64,000 bases of DNA, from the NCBI GenBank assembly GCA_021927905.1, contig BLLK01000058.1, forward strand, positions 868,001 through 932,000, written 5' to 3'. The notes under the pieces are model-generated. The model made no database searches. It saw nothing but the letters and a program-made list of their open reading frames with translations, and was not told the DNA's origin. The position numbers and the translations under genes are program-made. Numbering within the stretch: the stretch's first letter is position 1; each line of letters begins with the position of its first letter. The stretch comes from Chaetoceros tenuissimus. Lineage: Eukaryota > Bacillariophyta > Thalassiosirophyceae > Chaetocerotales > Chaetocerotaceae. Of the stretch, positions 13,631 through 62,274 are shown piece by piece.

Positions 13631-15955
13631 CTAAGGCGACTCTCTCTTCATATAAAAATACATGTTATAATTTACACTTTCTATTTTTCTACAATGCATA
13701 ATATTTAAGCAGCCGGAGCGCATCTTACGTAACTTGTATCCGAAAGATCTGCAACGCTAATTGTTTGGTGTGATGATACTTCTCTGACAAGATTATATAA
13801 AGTATCTCTGTCCTCATTGCTCATCTCAGTCTCATGTTCATGGAAGAAGTCCCATGCTTTCTTTGCAGCTTCATATGAATGCTCGTTAGAGTCTTGCTCA
13901 TTTAGAATCCATGCCATCTCAACTAGATTGGAGAAAATGAAACTCGCAATCTGGGAGGATAGCTCTGCTTCTTCAGCACTGATGTCGTCATCAAGCTCAG
14001 ATGACATAGCATTTTTTGCACTGTACAAAATTTGAAGAGATTGCTTCAAGAGATCTAAACCCTTACTTGTATGTCCCTTCTTGTTCATCAACGTCGAAAT
14101 GTTCGTGATTACATTAGCAATCTGCAAATCAATGCTAGGAGATTCGGCAAGATCAGCCTTGAGCTGCATGTATACTTTCAAGGATTTTTGAAAGTATGTA
14201 GATGCCTTGGAATAATTCTTGTTCTCAAAATGGACCATAGCGAGTAGATTCAATGTAGATGCAGCTGTTTTTTGCATAAGCAGAGATTGTTTCTGTCTAT
14301 CATGATGGTCACAGAAGTCAAGTAGCTCAAGCAGAGTTGCTTCAGCACTTTCGTAGTCTTCCTTCATCTTGTAGGTTAGAGCGATTTTGGTTTTGATGTC
14401 AATAACATCGATCATAGTTCTCTGATCAATGTCAGAAACAGTCAAAAGCTCAAGTGCAGAAGACAAGAATTTGATAGACTCATCGAAGAATCCATCGTCT
14501 CTCAAGACAGCTCCAATGTTACAAAGAGTGATGACAGAGGTACTCGGGTCCATACCGAGTTCTTGGTCTAGACAGAGCTGTGAATGGAACATCTTGATAG
14601 CATCGCAGTATTCTTCACGTCTATGGTAGATAAGTCCAAGTCTATTGAAGACACTACGAAGATACCTTGGCTCGAAGTCAGGAACATTCGTAAGAGACTT
14701 GTAAAAGTGGAGAGCATGAGCCCAATCACCAGCCTCGTAGTAGAGGTCAGCAACATTGAGGATGATGCTCGTCACATCGGTGTGATGTTCACCAAGGGTC
14801 CCAGGTGCAATGAGAATGAAGGATTTGTAGGCGGAAATGGCTGCGTCGTTGTTTCCGAGCTTGGAATGGACGTCGCCAATGTTGCAGAAAGTAGCAGCAA
14901 CATCGATATGATCGCAACCTAGGAAAAGTTCTTGTCTGATGATAAGAGCTTTGTTAAAGTATTCAAATGCCTCGTGTAGCTTTTGTAATCGGAACAATAC
15001 TCTACCGAAGTTATTGAGCATAGTAGCCTTCAAGCTAAAGATTGAAGACAGGGAAATTCCACCACTGCGATTTGCTTGTAGTTTTGCATTTGTGGAAAGA
15101 ATATTTTGAGCTAACTCAAGTTTCTTCAATGCATCGGACAGAGTTTCATGTTGTGTAGACGAAGGTGGAGCATGGAGTTTGCAGACTGCAAAACAATTTA
15201 GCGTAGAGGATAGAACAAAGGCTATGACATCAGATGACTGCTGCTGTGAAGATGGAGCGATCATATCAAGATAACGAAGGAAGTCATGGAATACCTGTGC
15301 AGCTTGTTCTAGTTTCCCATTTGTAAAATGTATGCTTCCAATTCTATGAATAGCAGCTGCATATAGGAAAACATGCTGATTCAGAGTTGTACCGTCAACT
15401 GCTGCTGGAAGAAGCTGGAGTGCTTTTTCATAGCATGCTAGAGCTTGAGACTTGTCTTCATGGTGCAGTGCAGAAAGGATCATACCTTGATTCAGAAGAA
15501 TGGTGACCTCTTGAAAGCTAAGTGATATTCTAGTTGGTGTAAAAACACTAGCTTGACATAGGGGGATAGCCTTGGTGAAAGTGTGCATGCCTTCTTCATA
15601 TGAGTGTTTCGACTCGCTCGACTGGTGAAGCGAATTGAAGTATTCATAGACCAATGGCGATGGAGGAGAAATAGCTCCAACTGGGGAAGAGTGGCGGTAA
15701 ATGTTCATGCTTTCGGATTCCGCAACTAGTTCCTGTTGCTGCAGCCTCCTTATGTCTTCTAGAGCTTGGTTGGAAGAGGCAATAGCTTCTTCGTATTGGC
15801 CAGTGCTGTGCATTGATATAGAAGAATGGTGATGGAGAACGTAATTCATAATGATGCAGTGTAACTAAGATGAGATGAATATTATGTCCTAAATAAAGGG
15901 GAAGGCAAAAAAGGCAGTTCCAAGTTCAAACAGAGATTGAAGACATCAGCTTCAA
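13631..15955. repeat. Left arm of 2.3-kb inverted repeat
   Basis: This segment is the reverse complement of 16092-18435 at very high identity. It contains the whole TPR gene, its 3' flank to a CTAAGG at 13631 and its 5' flank to TTCAA at 15955. Small indels break the match near both ends; the largest, about 20 bp, is near 15915. Confidence 0.95.
13705..15849 (-). CDS. TPR-repeat protein, inverted copy 1
   Basis: A 714-aa protein made mostly of tetratricopeptide repeats resembling kinesin light chain / TPR_12 arrays, for example NIGDVHSKLGNNDAAISAY, LNVADLYYEAGDWAHALHFY and LLAMVHFENKNYSKASTYF. Such arrays mediate protein-protein contacts; the partner is unknown. There is no signal peptide, membrane segment or added catalytic domain. 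The N-terminus is His/Ser-rich and the C-terminus ends VRCAPAA. It is a near-identical twin of the gene at 16220-18364, transcribed away from it. I count four differing residues between the two proteins, three of them clustered around residues 300-350. The clean full-length frame argues that it is functional. Confidence 0.9.
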   Translation of the reverse strand: MNYVLHHHSSISMHSTGQYEEAIASSNQALEDIRRLQQQELVAESESMNIYRHSSPVGAISPPSPLVYEYFNSLHQSSESKHSYEEGMHTFTKAIPLCQASVFTPTRISLSFQEVTILLNQGMILSALHHEDKSQALACYEKALQLLPAAVDGTTLNQHVFLYAAAIHRIGSIHFTNGKLEQAAQVFHDFLRYLDMIAPSSQQQSSDVIAFVLSSTLNCFAVCKLHAPPSSTQHETLSDALKKLELAQNILSTNAKLQANRSGGISLSSIFSLKATMLNNFGRVLFRLQKLHEAFEYFNKALIIRQELFLGCDHIDVAATFCNIGDVHSKLGNNDAAISAYKSFILIAPGTLGEHHTDVTSIILNVADLYYEAGDWAHALHFYKSLTNVPDFEPRYLRSVFNRLGLIYHRREEYCDAIKMFHSQLCLDQELGMDPSTSVITLCNIGAVLRDDGFFDESIKFLSSALELLTVSDIDQRTMIDVIDIKTKIALTYKMKEDYESAEATLLELLDFCDHHDRQKQSLLMQKTAASTLNLLAMVHFENKNYSKASTYFQKSLKVYMQLKADLAESPSIDLQIANVITNISTLMNKKGHTSKGLDLLKQSLQILYSAKNAMSSELDDDISAEEAELSSQIASFIFSNLVEMAWILNEQDSNEHSYEAAKKAWDFFHEHETEMSNEDRDTLYNLVREVSSHQTISVADLSDTSYVRCAPAA

Positions 15956-16091
15956 GCTTACGTAAGTTATAAAAGCAGTGGTTCTCATGTTCTCATGCTT
16001 ACTAAGTCATCATTTCCTCGTTTGTACGTATATATTAATACTGGGAACCTTAAATAAAGCATGACCGCGTAATTACAACTTCAACTGAAGT
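15956..16091. promoter_or_regulatory. Spacer between inverted TPR genes, shared promoter region
   Basis: About 136 bp of unique sequence lie between the arms. It includes TATAAAA at 15968-15974 and several TATATA/TTAAATAA tracts. Together with the mirrored 5' flanks (15850-15955 and 16092-16219) it forms a 370-bp intergenic region that must drive both genes outward. Because most of the upstream sequence is duplicated, both copies probably have similar regulation. Confidence 0.5.
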
Positions 16092-18435
16092 TTGAAGCTG
16101 ATGTCTTCAATCTCTGTTCCCTTCATGTTGTGTAAATACCGTGAAGACCCACTTCCTTTTTTGCCTTCCCCTTTATTTAGGACATAATATTCATCTCATC
16201 TTAGTTACACTGCATCATTATGAATTACGTTCTCCATCACCATTCTTCTATATCAATGCACAGCACTGGCCAATACGAAGAAGCTATTGCCTCTTCCAAC
16301 CAAGCTCTAGAAGACATAAGGAGGCTGCAGCAACAGGAACTAGTTGCGGAATCCGAAAGCATGAACATTTACCGCCACTCTTCCCCAGTTGGAGCTATTT
16401 CTCCTCCATCGCCATTGGTCTATGAATACTTCAATTCGCTTCACCAGTCGAGCGAGTCGAAACACTCATATGAAGAAGGCATGCACACTTTCACCAAGGC
16501 TATCCCCCTATGTCAAGCTAGTGTTTTTACACCAACTAGAATATCACTTAGCTTTCAAGAGGTCACCATTCTTCTGAATCAAGGTATGATCCTTTCTGCA
16601 CTGCACCATGAAGACAAGTCTCAAGCTCTAGCATGCTATGAAAAAGCACTCCAGCTTCTTCCAGCAGCAGTTGACGGTACAACTCTGAATCAGCATGTTT
16701 TCCTATATGCAGCTGCTATTCATAGAATTGGAAGCATACATTTTACAAATGGGAAACTAGAACAAGCTGCACAGGTATTCCATGACTTCCTTCGTTATCT
16801 TGATATGATCGCTCCATCTTCACAGCAGCAGTCATCTGATGTCATAGCCTTTGTTCTATCCTCTACGCTAAATTGTTTTGCAGTCTGCAAACTCCATGCT
16901 CCACCTTCGTCTACACAACATGAAACTCTGTCCGATGCATTGAAGAAACTTGAGTTAGCTCAAAATATTCTTTCCACAAATGCAAAACTACAAGCAAATC
17001 GCAGTGGTGGAATTTCCCTGTCTTCAATCTTTAGCTTGAAGGCTACTATGCTCAATAACTTCGGTAGAGTATTGTTCCGATTACAAAAGCTACACGAGGC
17101 ACTTGAATACTTTAACAAAGCTCTTATCATCAGACAAGAACTTTTCCTAGATTGCGATCATATCGATGTTGCCGCTACTTTCTGCAACATTGGCGACGTC
17201 CATTCCAAGCTCGGAAACAACGACGCAGCCATTTCCGCCTACAAATCCTTCATTCTTATTGCACCTAGGACCCTTGGTGAACATCACACCGATGTGACGA
17301 GCATCATCCTCAATGTTGCTGACCTCTACTACGAGGCTGGTGATTGGGCTCACGCTCTTCATTTTTACAAGTCTCTTACGAATGTTCCTGACTTCGAGCC
17401 AAGGTATCTTCGTAGTGTCTTCAATAGACTTGGACTTATCTACCATAGACGTGAAGAATACTGCGATGCTATCAAGATGTTCCATTCACAGCTCTGTCTA
17501 GACCAAGAACTCGGTATGGACCCGAGTACCTCTGTCATCACTCTTTGTAACATTGGAGCTGTCTTGAGAGACGATGGATTCTTCGATGAGTCTATCAAAT
17601 TCTTGTCTTCTGCACTTGAGCTTTTGACTGTTTCTGACATTGATCAGAGAACTATGATCGATGTTATTGACATCAAAACCAAAATCGCTCTAACCTACAA
17701 GATGAAGGAAGACTACGAAAGTGCTGAAGCAACTCTGCTTGAGCTACTTGACTTCTGTGACCATCAAGATAGACAGAAACAATCTCTGCTTATGCAAAAA
17801 ACAGCTGCATCTACATTGAATCTACTCGCTATGGTCCATTTTGAGAACAAGAATTATTCCAAGGCATCTACATACTTTCAAAAATCCTTGAAAGTATACA
17901 TGCAGCTCAAGGCTGATCTTGCCGAATCTCCTAGCATTGATTTGCAGATTGCTAATGTAATCACGAACATTTCGACGTTGATGAACAAGAAGGGACATAC
18001 AAGTAAGGGTTTAGATCTCTTGAAGCAATCTCTTCAAATTTTGTACAGTGCAAAAAATGCTATGTCATCTGAGCTTGATGACGACATCAGTGCTGAAGAA
18101 GCAGAGCTATCCTCCCAGATTGCGAGTTTCATTTTCTCCAATCTAGTTGAGATGGCATGGATTCTAAATGAGCAAGACTCTAACGAGCATTCATATGAAG
18201 CTGCAAAGAAAGCATGGGACTTCTTCCATGAACATGAGACTGAGATGAGCAATGAGGACAGAGATACTTTATATAATCTTGTCAGAGAAGTATCATCACA
18301 CCAAACAATTAGCGTTGCAGATCTTTCGGATACAAGTTACGTAAGATGTGCTCCGGCTGCTTAAATATTATGCATTGTAGAAAAATAGAAAGTGTAAATT
18401 ATAACATGTATTTTTATATGAAGAGAGATCCTTAG
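16092..18435. repeat. Right arm of 2.3-kb inverted repeat
   Basis: Reverse complement of 13631-15955. The outer boundary is CCTTAG at 18431-18435, after which the two flanks are unrelated. The inner boundary is TTGAAGC at 16092. It carries about 20 extra bases near 16120-16145 relative to the left arm, showing that the arms are not simply one molecule read twice. Confidence 0.95.
16220..18364 (+). CDS. TPR-repeat protein, inverted copy 2
   Basis: A 714-aa TPR protein almost identical to its mirror twin at 13705-15849. Differences I could see: Leu for Phe in HEALEYF, Asp for Gly in FLDCDHID, Arg for Gly in APRTLG, and Gln for His in CDHQDRQ. All TPR motifs, the start context and the 3' flank are conserved. 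The replacements are mild and no frame is broken, so both copies could be active. Conservation in mirrored flanks suggests either a very recent duplication or continuing gene conversion between arms. The function is undetermined beyond the TPR scaffold. Confidence 0.9.
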   Translation: MNYVLHHHSSISMHSTGQYEEAIASSNQALEDIRRLQQQELVAESESMNIYRHSSPVGAISPPSPLVYEYFNSLHQSSESKHSYEEGMHTFTKAIPLCQASVFTPTRISLSFQEVTILLNQGMILSALHHEDKSQALACYEKALQLLPAAVDGTTLNQHVFLYAAAIHRIGSIHFTNGKLEQAAQVFHDFLRYLDMIAPSSQQQSSDVIAFVLSSTLNCFAVCKLHAPPSSTQHETLSDALKKLELAQNILSTNAKLQANRSGGISLSSIFSLKATMLNNFGRVLFRLQKLHEALEYFNKALIIRQELFLDCDHIDVAATFCNIGDVHSKLGNNDAAISAYKSFILIAPRTLGEHHTDVTSIILNVADLYYEAGDWAHALHFYKSLTNVPDFEPRYLRSVFNRLGLIYHRREEYCDAIKMFHSQLCLDQELGMDPSTSVITLCNIGAVLRDDGFFDESIKFLSSALELLTVSDIDQRTMIDVIDIKTKIALTYKMKEDYESAEATLLELLDFCDHQDRQKQSLLMQKTAASTLNLLAMVHFENKNYSKASTYFQKSLKVYMQLKADLAESPSIDLQIANVITNISTLMNKKGHTSKGLDLLKQSLQILYSAKNAMSSELDDDISAEEAELSSQIASFIFSNLVEMAWILNEQDSNEHSYEAAKKAWDFFHEHETEMSNEDRDTLYNLVREVSSHQTISVADLSDTSYVRCAPAA

Positions 18436-36545: not shown

Positions 36546-37156
36546 TATGATGGTAGATTGTACCTAATGGCAAGGTCAACGGCCCCCATTAGTAATCTGC
36601 GATCAATGCTTTTCTATGTTGTTTTATGCGGCTATTTAAAACGTTTGGCTAGGCACCTTTTTCTACTCTAGTACTACGTACGTAGCTACGAATTTAACAA
36701 AGCAAAATTGAATCGTATCGATTCATTTTGAACCCTTTAAGCAACATTCAAAGCCTTATTTCTATATGAAGTGTGTTGATTGTTATGTTTGTATGGTTGT
36801 TTGAATCGATTGCATTGTTTGAAGCTCGTTTCAATGATGTTGATGTTGTGTCGTAGTGTGAAAGTTGTGTTGAGACATGCGTTATTCCTGTTTGAGTCCC
36901 AGGAACCAAAATTAGGTGGTTTTCCATCAAAATCTGAACGAACAAAGCCCTCTTGAATTTTTCCTAGATTTTTCCCAATATCAACGGAAATCATTCTATT
37001 AGATAGGTATTTTACTTTAAGTGTACATATTGCCCAGCTCTCAATCAATTCAATTTTTTATCGACCCAGTGATTTCATTCATACCACACATGTACGTACA
37101 GGGGTTAAGTAAGTCAACACTCGTCGCTTCGCTCCTCCCGTTGACCTTGATTATTT
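36546..37156. repeat. 0.61-kb dispersed repeat, copy A
   Basis: This 611-bp segment matches 61665-62274 in the same orientation with only about five small differences (about 99% identity). The left part carries CAAGGTCAACGG and the right end its reverse complement CCGTTGACCTTG. The right end also folds on itself (GTCAAC ... GTTGAC around a GC-rich loop). A minus-strand open frame of 85-103 codons is preserved in both copies but resembles nothing I know. I found no clear target-site duplication. A non-autonomous DNA element or another small repeat family is possible. Confidence 0.85.
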
Positions 37157-38417: not shown

Positions 38418-40370
38418 TTAAATGATGAGTATACATGCAAGGACAGTTAAGATACCAATATCAACAGTGAATCGTGTTGCTGAAGAAGATTGATCGCTGT
38501 TGGATACAGAAGCTCTCCCAAAATCAATGTCTCTTGTGGAACTTTTGCTACCTTTGCCACCACACCCTCTAACACTCTTGTTGCTTTTGTTACTTTTACT
38601 CTCCGATTTGTTACTTTTACTCTCCGATTTGTTACTTTTACTGCCTGACTTGTTGCTTTTACCCCCTTTGCTGCTTTTACTACCCGATTTGTTGCTCTTG
38701 TTGCCTGATTTGTTGCTCTTTTGTTTTGTTGGAGACAAAGTAATCACTGTCGGAGATGAAGTTACAGTTGGAGAAAAGGAAGGGCTGTCACTTGGAGCTA
38801 CAGAACAAGATGGACTGGTTGAAGGCATATCAGATGGAGCACTAGACACTGACGGATTCAAACTCGGTTCGGATGAAGGCATCAGACTTGGTTCAGAACT
38901 CGGAATAGTCGACGGTTCAGAAGAAGGTTCTACAGAAGGAAAAATTGATGGCTCAGAAGATGGCAAAAGGCTGGGTTCAGACGATGGCGATGAACTCGGT
39001 TCTTGACTTGGTTCTGAAGATGGATTTAGTGAAGGAGTATCTGAGGGTATCATTGACAAGGATGGAACTGAAGATGGTTGATCAGATGGTACGTCTGACG
39101 GAATATCTGACGGCATCGATGACGGAAGTGAAGATGGTTGATCAGATGGTACGTCTGACGGAATATCTGATGGCATCGATGACGGAAGTGAAGATGGTTG
39201 ATCAGATGGTACGTCTGACGGAATATCTGATGGCATCGATGATGGAAGTGAAGATGGTTGATCAGATGGTACGTCTGACGGTACGTCACTTGGCATTGAT
39301 GATGGAAGCAAACTTGGTTGATCAGATGGTACGTCTGACGGAATATCTGATGGCATCGATGACGGACCAGATGAAGGTTGATCAGATGGTACGTCTGACG
39401 GAATATCTGACGGAATATCTGATGGCATCGATGACGGACCAGATGAAGGTTGATCAGAAGGAATATCTGACGGAACGTCGCTTGGGATAGATGACGGAAG
39501 TGAACTTGGTTGATCCGAGGGGGTATCAGAAGGAACGTCTGAAGGTACATCTATTTTGAGCATAGATAGAAAAGAAATATTGCAGTTAGTAAACAAACAA
39601 CAACTCAAGTCAGGACACATTTGTAATGATATTGCATTGCATTGAATTCACTCACCACTTGGAATATCGCTTGGAATAGATGACGGAAGCAAACTTGGCT
39701 GATCCGACGGGATATCTGAAGGAACGTCGCTTGGAATAGATGACGGAAGTAAAGATGGTTGATCCGATGGGGTATCTGACGGAACATCACTTGGGATAGA
39801 TGATGGAACGGAGCTTGGTTGATCCGATGGTATGTCTGAAGGAACGTCACTTGGCATCGATGACGGAAGTGATGAGGGTTGATCAGATGGTACGTCTGAC
39901 GGTACGTCACTTGGCATCGATGACGGAAGTGATGAGGGTTGATCAGATGGTACGTCTGAAGGAATATCCGATGGTACAGAAGACGGAAGCAAACTTGGTT
40001 GATCCGATGGGGTATCTGAAGGAACGTCTGATGGTAAATTGCTTGGAACGTCCGAAGGTAAATCAGAGGGTACCATTGATAACGAAGGCTCAGATGAAGG
40101 CAAGCTACTTGGTAAATCTGAAGGCAAGTCACTGGGTAAATCTGAAGGCAAATTACTTGGTAAATCTGAAGGCAAATTACTTGGTAAAGATGACGGAATC
40201 ATTGAAGGTTCTGAAGATGGAATTGCCGATGGAGATGGTGAAGTAGTTGGAGTTTGAGCCTTTGCTTCATTTAAAATTGCTAGAAATACCACTGCAGTCG
40301 TAATCATATTTGTAGCTCCATAGTTTGCTCGAGATTTCTTTGTCGATTTTGATGAAACTTTTGTCACCAT
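38418..40370 (-). CDS. PSD/PSS-repeat mucin-like surface protein, 2 exons
   Basis: Exon 1 (40370-39656) and exon 2 (39550-38418) are joined by a 105-bp GT-AG intron in phase 1 that restores the repeat exactly (..DIPS|DVPS..), giving 615 aa. After a hydrophobic leader (ITTAVVFLAILNEAKA) comes a region of about 450 residues of tetrapeptide repeats (PSDx, PSSx, PSxx), arranged in places as near-perfect 20-residue units of the type SDQPSSLPSSMPSDIPSDVP. A Lys/Ser/Asn/Gly-rich stretch follows, then a hydrophobic end (VDIGILTVLACILII), as expected for a GPI signal or membrane anchor. Such Pro/Ser-rich proteins are likely heavily O-glycosylated and sit at the diatom cell surface or wall. The function is inferred. 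Confidence 0.88.
39060..39480. repeat. 60-bp coding minisatellite
   Basis: About seven units with a 60-bp period, each containing GGTTGATCAGATGGTACGTC and encoding 20 residues of the PSD repeat on the minus strand. Some neighbouring units are identical or nearly so, showing recent unit duplication. A related but more diverged array continues in exon 1 (about 39660-40190). Confidence 0.85.
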
Positions 40371-61664: not shown

Positions 61665-62274
61665 TATGATGGTAGATTGTATCTAATGGCAAGGTCAACG
61701 GCCCCCATTAGTAATCTGCGATCAATGCTTTTCTATGTTGTTTTATGCGGCTATTTAAAACGTTTGGCTAGGCACCTTTTTCTACTCTAGTACTACGTAG
61801 CTACGAATTTAACAAAGCAAAATTGAATCGTATCGATTCATTTTGAACCCTTTAAGCAACATTCAAAGCCTTATTTCTATATGAAGTGTGTTGATTGTTA
61901 TGTTTGTATGGTTGTTTGAATCGATTGCATTGTTTGAAGCTCGTTTCAATGATGTTGATGTTGTGTCGTAGTGTGAAAGTTGTGTTGAGACATGCGTTAT
62001 TCCTGTTTGAGTCCCAGGAACCAAAATTAGGTGGTTTTCCATCAAAATCTGAACGAACAAAGCCCTCTTGAATTTTTCCTAGATTTTTCCCAATATCAAC
62101 GGAAATCATTCTATTAGATAGGTATTTTACTTTAAGTGTTCATATTGCCCAGCTCTCAATCAATTCAATTTTTTATCGACCCAGTGATTTCATTCATACC
62201 ACACATGTACGTACAGGGGTTAAGTAAGCGGTCAACACTCGTCGCTTCGCTCCTCCCGTTGACCTTGATCATTT
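61665..62274. repeat. 0.61-kb dispersed repeat, copy B
   Basis: A 610-bp segment, about 99% identical to and co-oriented with 36546-37156. Ends, internal fold-back segments and the 85-codon minus-strand frame (62109-61852) are the same as in copy A. The match starts abruptly at TATGATGG and stops after GATCATTT, so the boundaries are sharp and the repeat is a defined unit. Confidence 0.85.

Follow-up and report, generated by a model that had tools for sequence, protein, structure and literature searches.

Two near-identical TPR genes standing head-to-head in a 64,000-nt stretch of diatom DNA (C44:868001-932000, hereafter the window) are probably an inverted duplicate pair of some age that has been partly homogenised by interlocus gene conversion. 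The two inverted arms, ungapped and 2,278 bp each, agree at 2267/2278 positions (11 mismatches, 99.52%), and most of their differences fall in one short island. We infer that conversion, not youth, accounts for the likeness of this pair.

Layout of the inverted pair

The genome searched comprised 41,027,912 bp in 68 contigs. The published assembly of C. tenuissimus NIES-3715 is given as 41.0 Mb, with 38.9% G+C and 85 scaffolds, the largest of 4.46 Mb (PMC8613185); G+C in the window ranges from 36 to 42% per 2-kb block. Elsewhere in the window we observed a 610-bp direct repeat (36546-37156 and 61665-62274, 98.4% alike), whose nine genomic copies of at least 440 bp in a DNA search, both window copies included, suggest an interspersed element or a solo LTR. 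Tandem repeats of ~60 bp lie inside minus-strand ORFs at 39061-40036, and one ORF, 38418-39620, has a match to the PT disordered repeat family. The features of the near-palindrome are, in window coordinates:

13641..15918, minus strand: left arm of the near-palindrome (gene with 69 bp upstream of its ATG and 64 bp downstream of its stop)
13705..15849, minus strand: left TPR gene, one intact ORF of 714 aa (Pfam TPR_12, E 1.7e-41)
14707..14967, minus strand: divergence island, left copy, with 8/11 differences (codons 295-381; dS 0.087)
15919..16150, no strand: the 232 bp that separate the ungapped arms
15929..15959, no strand: block upstream of the left gene, mirrored at 16088-16118 with 97% identity
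16088..16118, no strand: mirrored counterpart of that block upstream of the right gene, shifted by 22 bp with respect to it
16151..18428, plus strand: right arm, inverted counterpart of the left arm
16155..17101, plus strand: 947-bp identical run that starts 65 bp upstream of the ATG and extends to codon 294, equal to 14968-15914 on the minus strand
16220..18364, plus strand: right TPR gene, one intact ORF of 714 aa (Pfam TPR_12, E 7.4e-41)
17102..17362, plus strand: divergence island, right copy, the same island as 14707-14967 in the left copy

The near-palindrome of two TPR genes described in the initial annotation is present in the assembly, with inverted arms, an intact ORF in each and an identity that does exceed the 99% it had claimed. 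Its exact ends, set at 13631-18435, did not hold, as the ungapped arms stop 10 and 7 bp inside them. The genes are divergent, with 370 bp from ATG to ATG. Searched at the DNA level, the 41-Mb assembly contains the arm sequence at these two places only, and the nearest other protein relative in the genome is 29% identical. The outer flanks were said to be unrelated, and they show no homology above shuffles over either 300 bp (score 11.0 vs 12.4 +/- 2.0) or 1,000 bp (14.0 vs 15.2 +/- 1.9). We are therefore dealing with adjacent inverted paralogues of high identity and unlike outer flanks. The unrelated sequence beyond the arms and the lack of a third copy make a simple fold-back assembly error unlikely, as previously argued, and we reject it as the whole explanation. 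Retroposition was also rejected, there being no poly-A stretch at the arm ends.

The interval between the arms required more revision. A 136-bp spacer had been reported, together with an indel of ~20 bp and a few substitutions between the arms. The ungapped interval is 232 bp, and the non-mirrored centre shrinks to 128 bp only if the displaced 31-bp mirrored block (97%) is counted as arm; the indel corresponds to the 22-bp displacement beyond the arms, which are themselves ungapped and differ by the 11 mismatches. Both earlier figures reflect a gapped continuation past the ungapped arms. The spacer, described as unique, is not wholly so, because its halves have in common a block of ~45 bp (the 31-bp block and a weaker extension) scoring 32.5 vs 8.3 +/- 1.3 in 500 shuffles, beyond which similarity between the halves does not exceed shuffles. 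The 26-base core of the mirrored block occurs at these two places only, with up to 3 mismatches allowed, and each TPR copy has its own 31-bp block at an unequal distance from its ATG.

Both products are TPR proteins (TPR_12 scores of 140.7 and 138.7 bits, cut-off 30.1) and not of the NPHP3 type, whose TPR model gave 42.9 and 46.7 bits against a cut-off of 100. In a search of solved structures the first natural match, after engineered TPR proteins, was kinesin light chain 1 (E 2.8e-10, covering the TPRs only). A single-sequence structure model was all helical and weak (mean pLDDT 54.3, pTM 0.38), and scans of viral and prokaryote contigs gave no relative. A scaffold or binding role is predicted from the family only.

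Clustered differences and competing explanations

Eight of the 11 arm differences lie inside 261 bp, a clustering with p = 0.0002 in 20,000 uniform placements. The span frequencies for k = 5 to 9 differences were 0.0067, 0.0059, 0.0008, 0.0002 and 0.009 (again 20,000 uniform placements). The length of the 947-bp identical run was reached in 3.1% of 20,000 uniform placements (p 0.031), which is weak alone. Synonymous divergence follows the same partition, with a dS of 0.087 in the island (5 changes) vs 0.0024 in the rest (1 change), a contrast supported by a Fisher value of 1.3e-4 for a window picked after the fact. Identical and diverged tracts alternate in the pair to a degree that exceeds chance, and a second TPR pair on contig C13 displays this more clearly. 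Among the 10 coding differences, 4 are nonsynonymous vs 78% of sites (p 0.01), so the differences accumulated under constraint. Diversifying selection on the island was rejected, as 5/8 of its changes are synonymous. Codon bias is weak in the pair (ENC about 50; 48.5-55.7 in four neighbour genes), and we therefore rejected codon constraint as the cause of its identity.

In the history that we favour, one nuclear TPR gene of a diatom, very probably C. tenuissimus NIES-3715, would have been duplicated head-to-head, in inverted orientation. Flanks and spacer would have diverged after the duplication, and interlocus gene conversion would have copied parts of the genes onto each other. The outcome would be an extended tract of identity, one small island that escaped conversion, and homology that is eroded immediately inward of the arms. 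Having two copies may simply provide more of a TPR scaffold protein, and no function of the arrangement would be required. Speaking for conversion are the clustered differences, the eroded inner block just inside the arms, the mosaic of the C13 pair and an arm difference of 0.48%, below the 1.56% heterozygosity reported for strain NIES-3715 (PMC8613185); against it stands the outer edge, which is sharp and without eroded homology, as a young duplication would give. The earlier proposal that gene conversion can keep such palindromes uniform thus gains indirect support from clustering, eroded inner homology and the C13 mosaic, short of proof for this pair. With such methods, it has been cautioned, the way in which identical bases are distributed should not serve as the sole evidence (PMC3966223).

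Because the outer edge is sharp and the comparison is made within one genome, the main rival is a very recent inverted duplication, into which the island of eight differences would have entered later by recombination with the other allele of a heterozygous diploid. The sharp, unrelated outer flanks and the dS of 0.0024 outside the island fit such a history, and the heterozygosity of the diploid strain, 1.56%, supplies allelic tracts. However, the eroded block past the 22-bp displacement needs a further event at the arm edge, and the island dS of 0.087, resting on 5 changes, is large for alleles that differ by 1.56% overall. We consider a recent origin clearly less probable than conversion, yet well ahead of the remaining explanations.

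An improbable reading is that both genes are real and their near-identity was partly made by the assembler, through short-read consensus or haplotype merging, in which case the island would mark a failure of this process or a haplotype switch. MaSuRCA was used to combine MiSeq with early MinION reads in a hybrid assembly of a diploid, to which HaploMerger2 was then applied (PMC8613185), and local homogenisation by the hybrid assembler is conceivable even with a fold-back error set aside. Nevertheless, the unrelated flanks and spacer mean that the arms were kept apart in the assembly, and the C13 pair, at 95.6%, was not homogenised throughout.

Least credible of all is a palindrome selected as such, whether because it extrudes a cruciform, as a source of hairpin RNA or as a single two-way promoter for both genes: the divergent genes, the 370 bp between ATGs and the mirrored upstream block would suit it, but divergent transcription alone makes no hairpin RNA, the upstream block is present separately for each copy, and the ATGs of the C13 pair lie 1,436 bp apart. 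Non-mirrored sequence of such length between arms disfavours cruciform extrusion, and these arms do not meet at or near the centre (232 bp, or at least 128 bp with the displaced block, are non-mirrored). The initial annotation's ideas of cruciform extrusion and of two copies served by one promoter region are accordingly unsupported, the latter since the 31-bp blocks lie at different ATG distances.

Head-to-head pairs elsewhere in the genome

A protein search gave at least 70 TPR matches, from which opposite-strand neighbours were chosen by eye and two pairs compared. The C13 pair (L033 and L034; 840466-843112 and 844519-847182) is likewise head-to-head, with 2.65-kb arms. Its left ORF is open for 47 further codons at the start. 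The coding sequence begins with ~44 diverged codons, in which about a quarter of bases differ, and a 21-bp gap; next comes a stretch of 646 bp without a single difference, then a region crowded with differences, and the remainder differs by about 2%. In 5,000 shuffles no identical run exceeded 460, vs the 646 observed, and dS downstream of this tract is 0.05-0.11. A tail-to-tail TPR pair on C22 showed no DNA similarity between its members at E 1e-5.

Both head-to-head TPR pairs carry a long identical run in their 5' part, which, in two pairs, no more than hints at conversion starting close to the upstream region that the genes share. The first 44 codons of the C13 pair, nearest the spacer, have diverged, which argues against a simple centre-out gradient. 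A common position for the divergence islands of the two pairs was rejected, as the islands do not align. We put forward with reserve, as something less likely than the history of the single pair, that head-to-head pairs are a recurrent conversion-homogenised architecture here (TPR and light-harvesting genes), in which conversion would start near the shared upstream region while promoters diverge and coding sequences stay alike.

We surveyed further families for opposite-strand neighbours within 5 kb, picked by eye from position lists (63 light-harvesting matches; at least 151 heat-shock-factor matches). Three light-harvesting head-to-head pairs are near-identical, L039 at 99.7%, L040 at 99.9% and L041 at 98.7%, with unlike spacers of 234-696 bp and identity confined to the CDS plus at most 58 bp. 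In L039 and L041 identity continues for 3 bp past the stop codon and for 14-23 bp upstream of the ATG, the corresponding lengths in L040 being 58 and 55 bp; 6/7 mismatches of L041 fall within its first 66 bp. Other light-harvesting head-to-head pairs are less alike (L043 81%; L054 80% over 148 bp; L055 no match), and tail-to-tail pairs of this family gave 86.9% (L042) and no match (L056). Among the matches listed for heat-shock factors, none of the five head-to-head pairs is near-identical (91% over 335 bp, 75%, 75%, 87% and no match). Heat-shock factors also form direct arrays (C14:1446884-1479633 and C43:61844-70866) with several identical scores, the light-harvesting neighbours being inverted instead. 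No close head-to-head pair was seen in the position lists of the HSP70 and cyclin families.

Overall, of 13 head-to-head pairs, a total that takes in the two TPR pairs, four exceed 98.5% identity. As the other 9/13 are not near-identical, the head-to-head arrangement alone does not bring homogenisation. Near-identity peculiar to inverted pairs is also unsupported, since dispersed light-harvesting copies likewise reach 96.7-98.9% identity, limited to the CDS. As an example, the light-harvesting genes L048, L049 and L050 lie on different contigs and are 97.5-98.9% alike, with little similarity beyond the CDS and unlike flanks. The direct duplicate L051/L052, 12 kb apart, is 96.6% alike across the full 2.8 kb compared. 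Light-harvesting genes show extreme codon bias (ENC 27-30), which is not rejected as the cause of their identity. Because of this bias and of the similar dispersed copies, the light-harvesting pairs are weak evidence for conversion.

Parallels in other organisms and significance

Conversion between adjacent inverted duplicates is already established in other organisms. Drosophila hsp70 genes, for instance, have an inverted arrangement. Conversion has been described among the transcribed sequence of these duplicate genes (PMC2871787), as we propose for the diatom pair; theirs is a highly expressed multicopy family in which others have shown conversion across species, whereas ours comes from one genome. 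The C. elegans hsp16 modules likewise form an inverted repeat about a short, 416-bp unique spacer, and their near-identity is ascribed to conversion, not youth (PMC3966223). These are two-gene heat-shock modules of 1.9 kb and 100% identity, in contrast to the single gene per arm and 99.5% seen here. In primate Y palindromes, too, inverted arms surround an unduplicated spacer and arm-to-arm conversion keeps the arms alike (PMC3403216). Those arms measure tens to hundreds of kb and lie on a sex chromosome, and arm-to-arm vs orthologue divergence was measured there, unlike in our single genome. Divergence islands inside duplicates undergoing conversion are reported for Tigriopus GOT1p1/GOT1p2 (PMC3728101), a likeness that leaves gene arrangement aside and draws on several populations where the TPR pair draws on one genome.

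In the open-licence literature we recognised no paper on conversion between inverted diatom gene pairs, and none joining Chaetoceros, 'inverted repeat' and 'gene conversion'. Frequent mitotic recombination is attributed to Phaeodactylum (PMC9266582, crediting Bulankova et al. 2021). Nine further C. tenuissimus strains have been named (PMC8613185), and they would allow a direct test of conversion. With two TPR pairs that differ in divergence within one genome, and several light-harvesting pairs, this 41-Mb genome offers a compact natural case for measuring conversion between inverted diatom duplicates.
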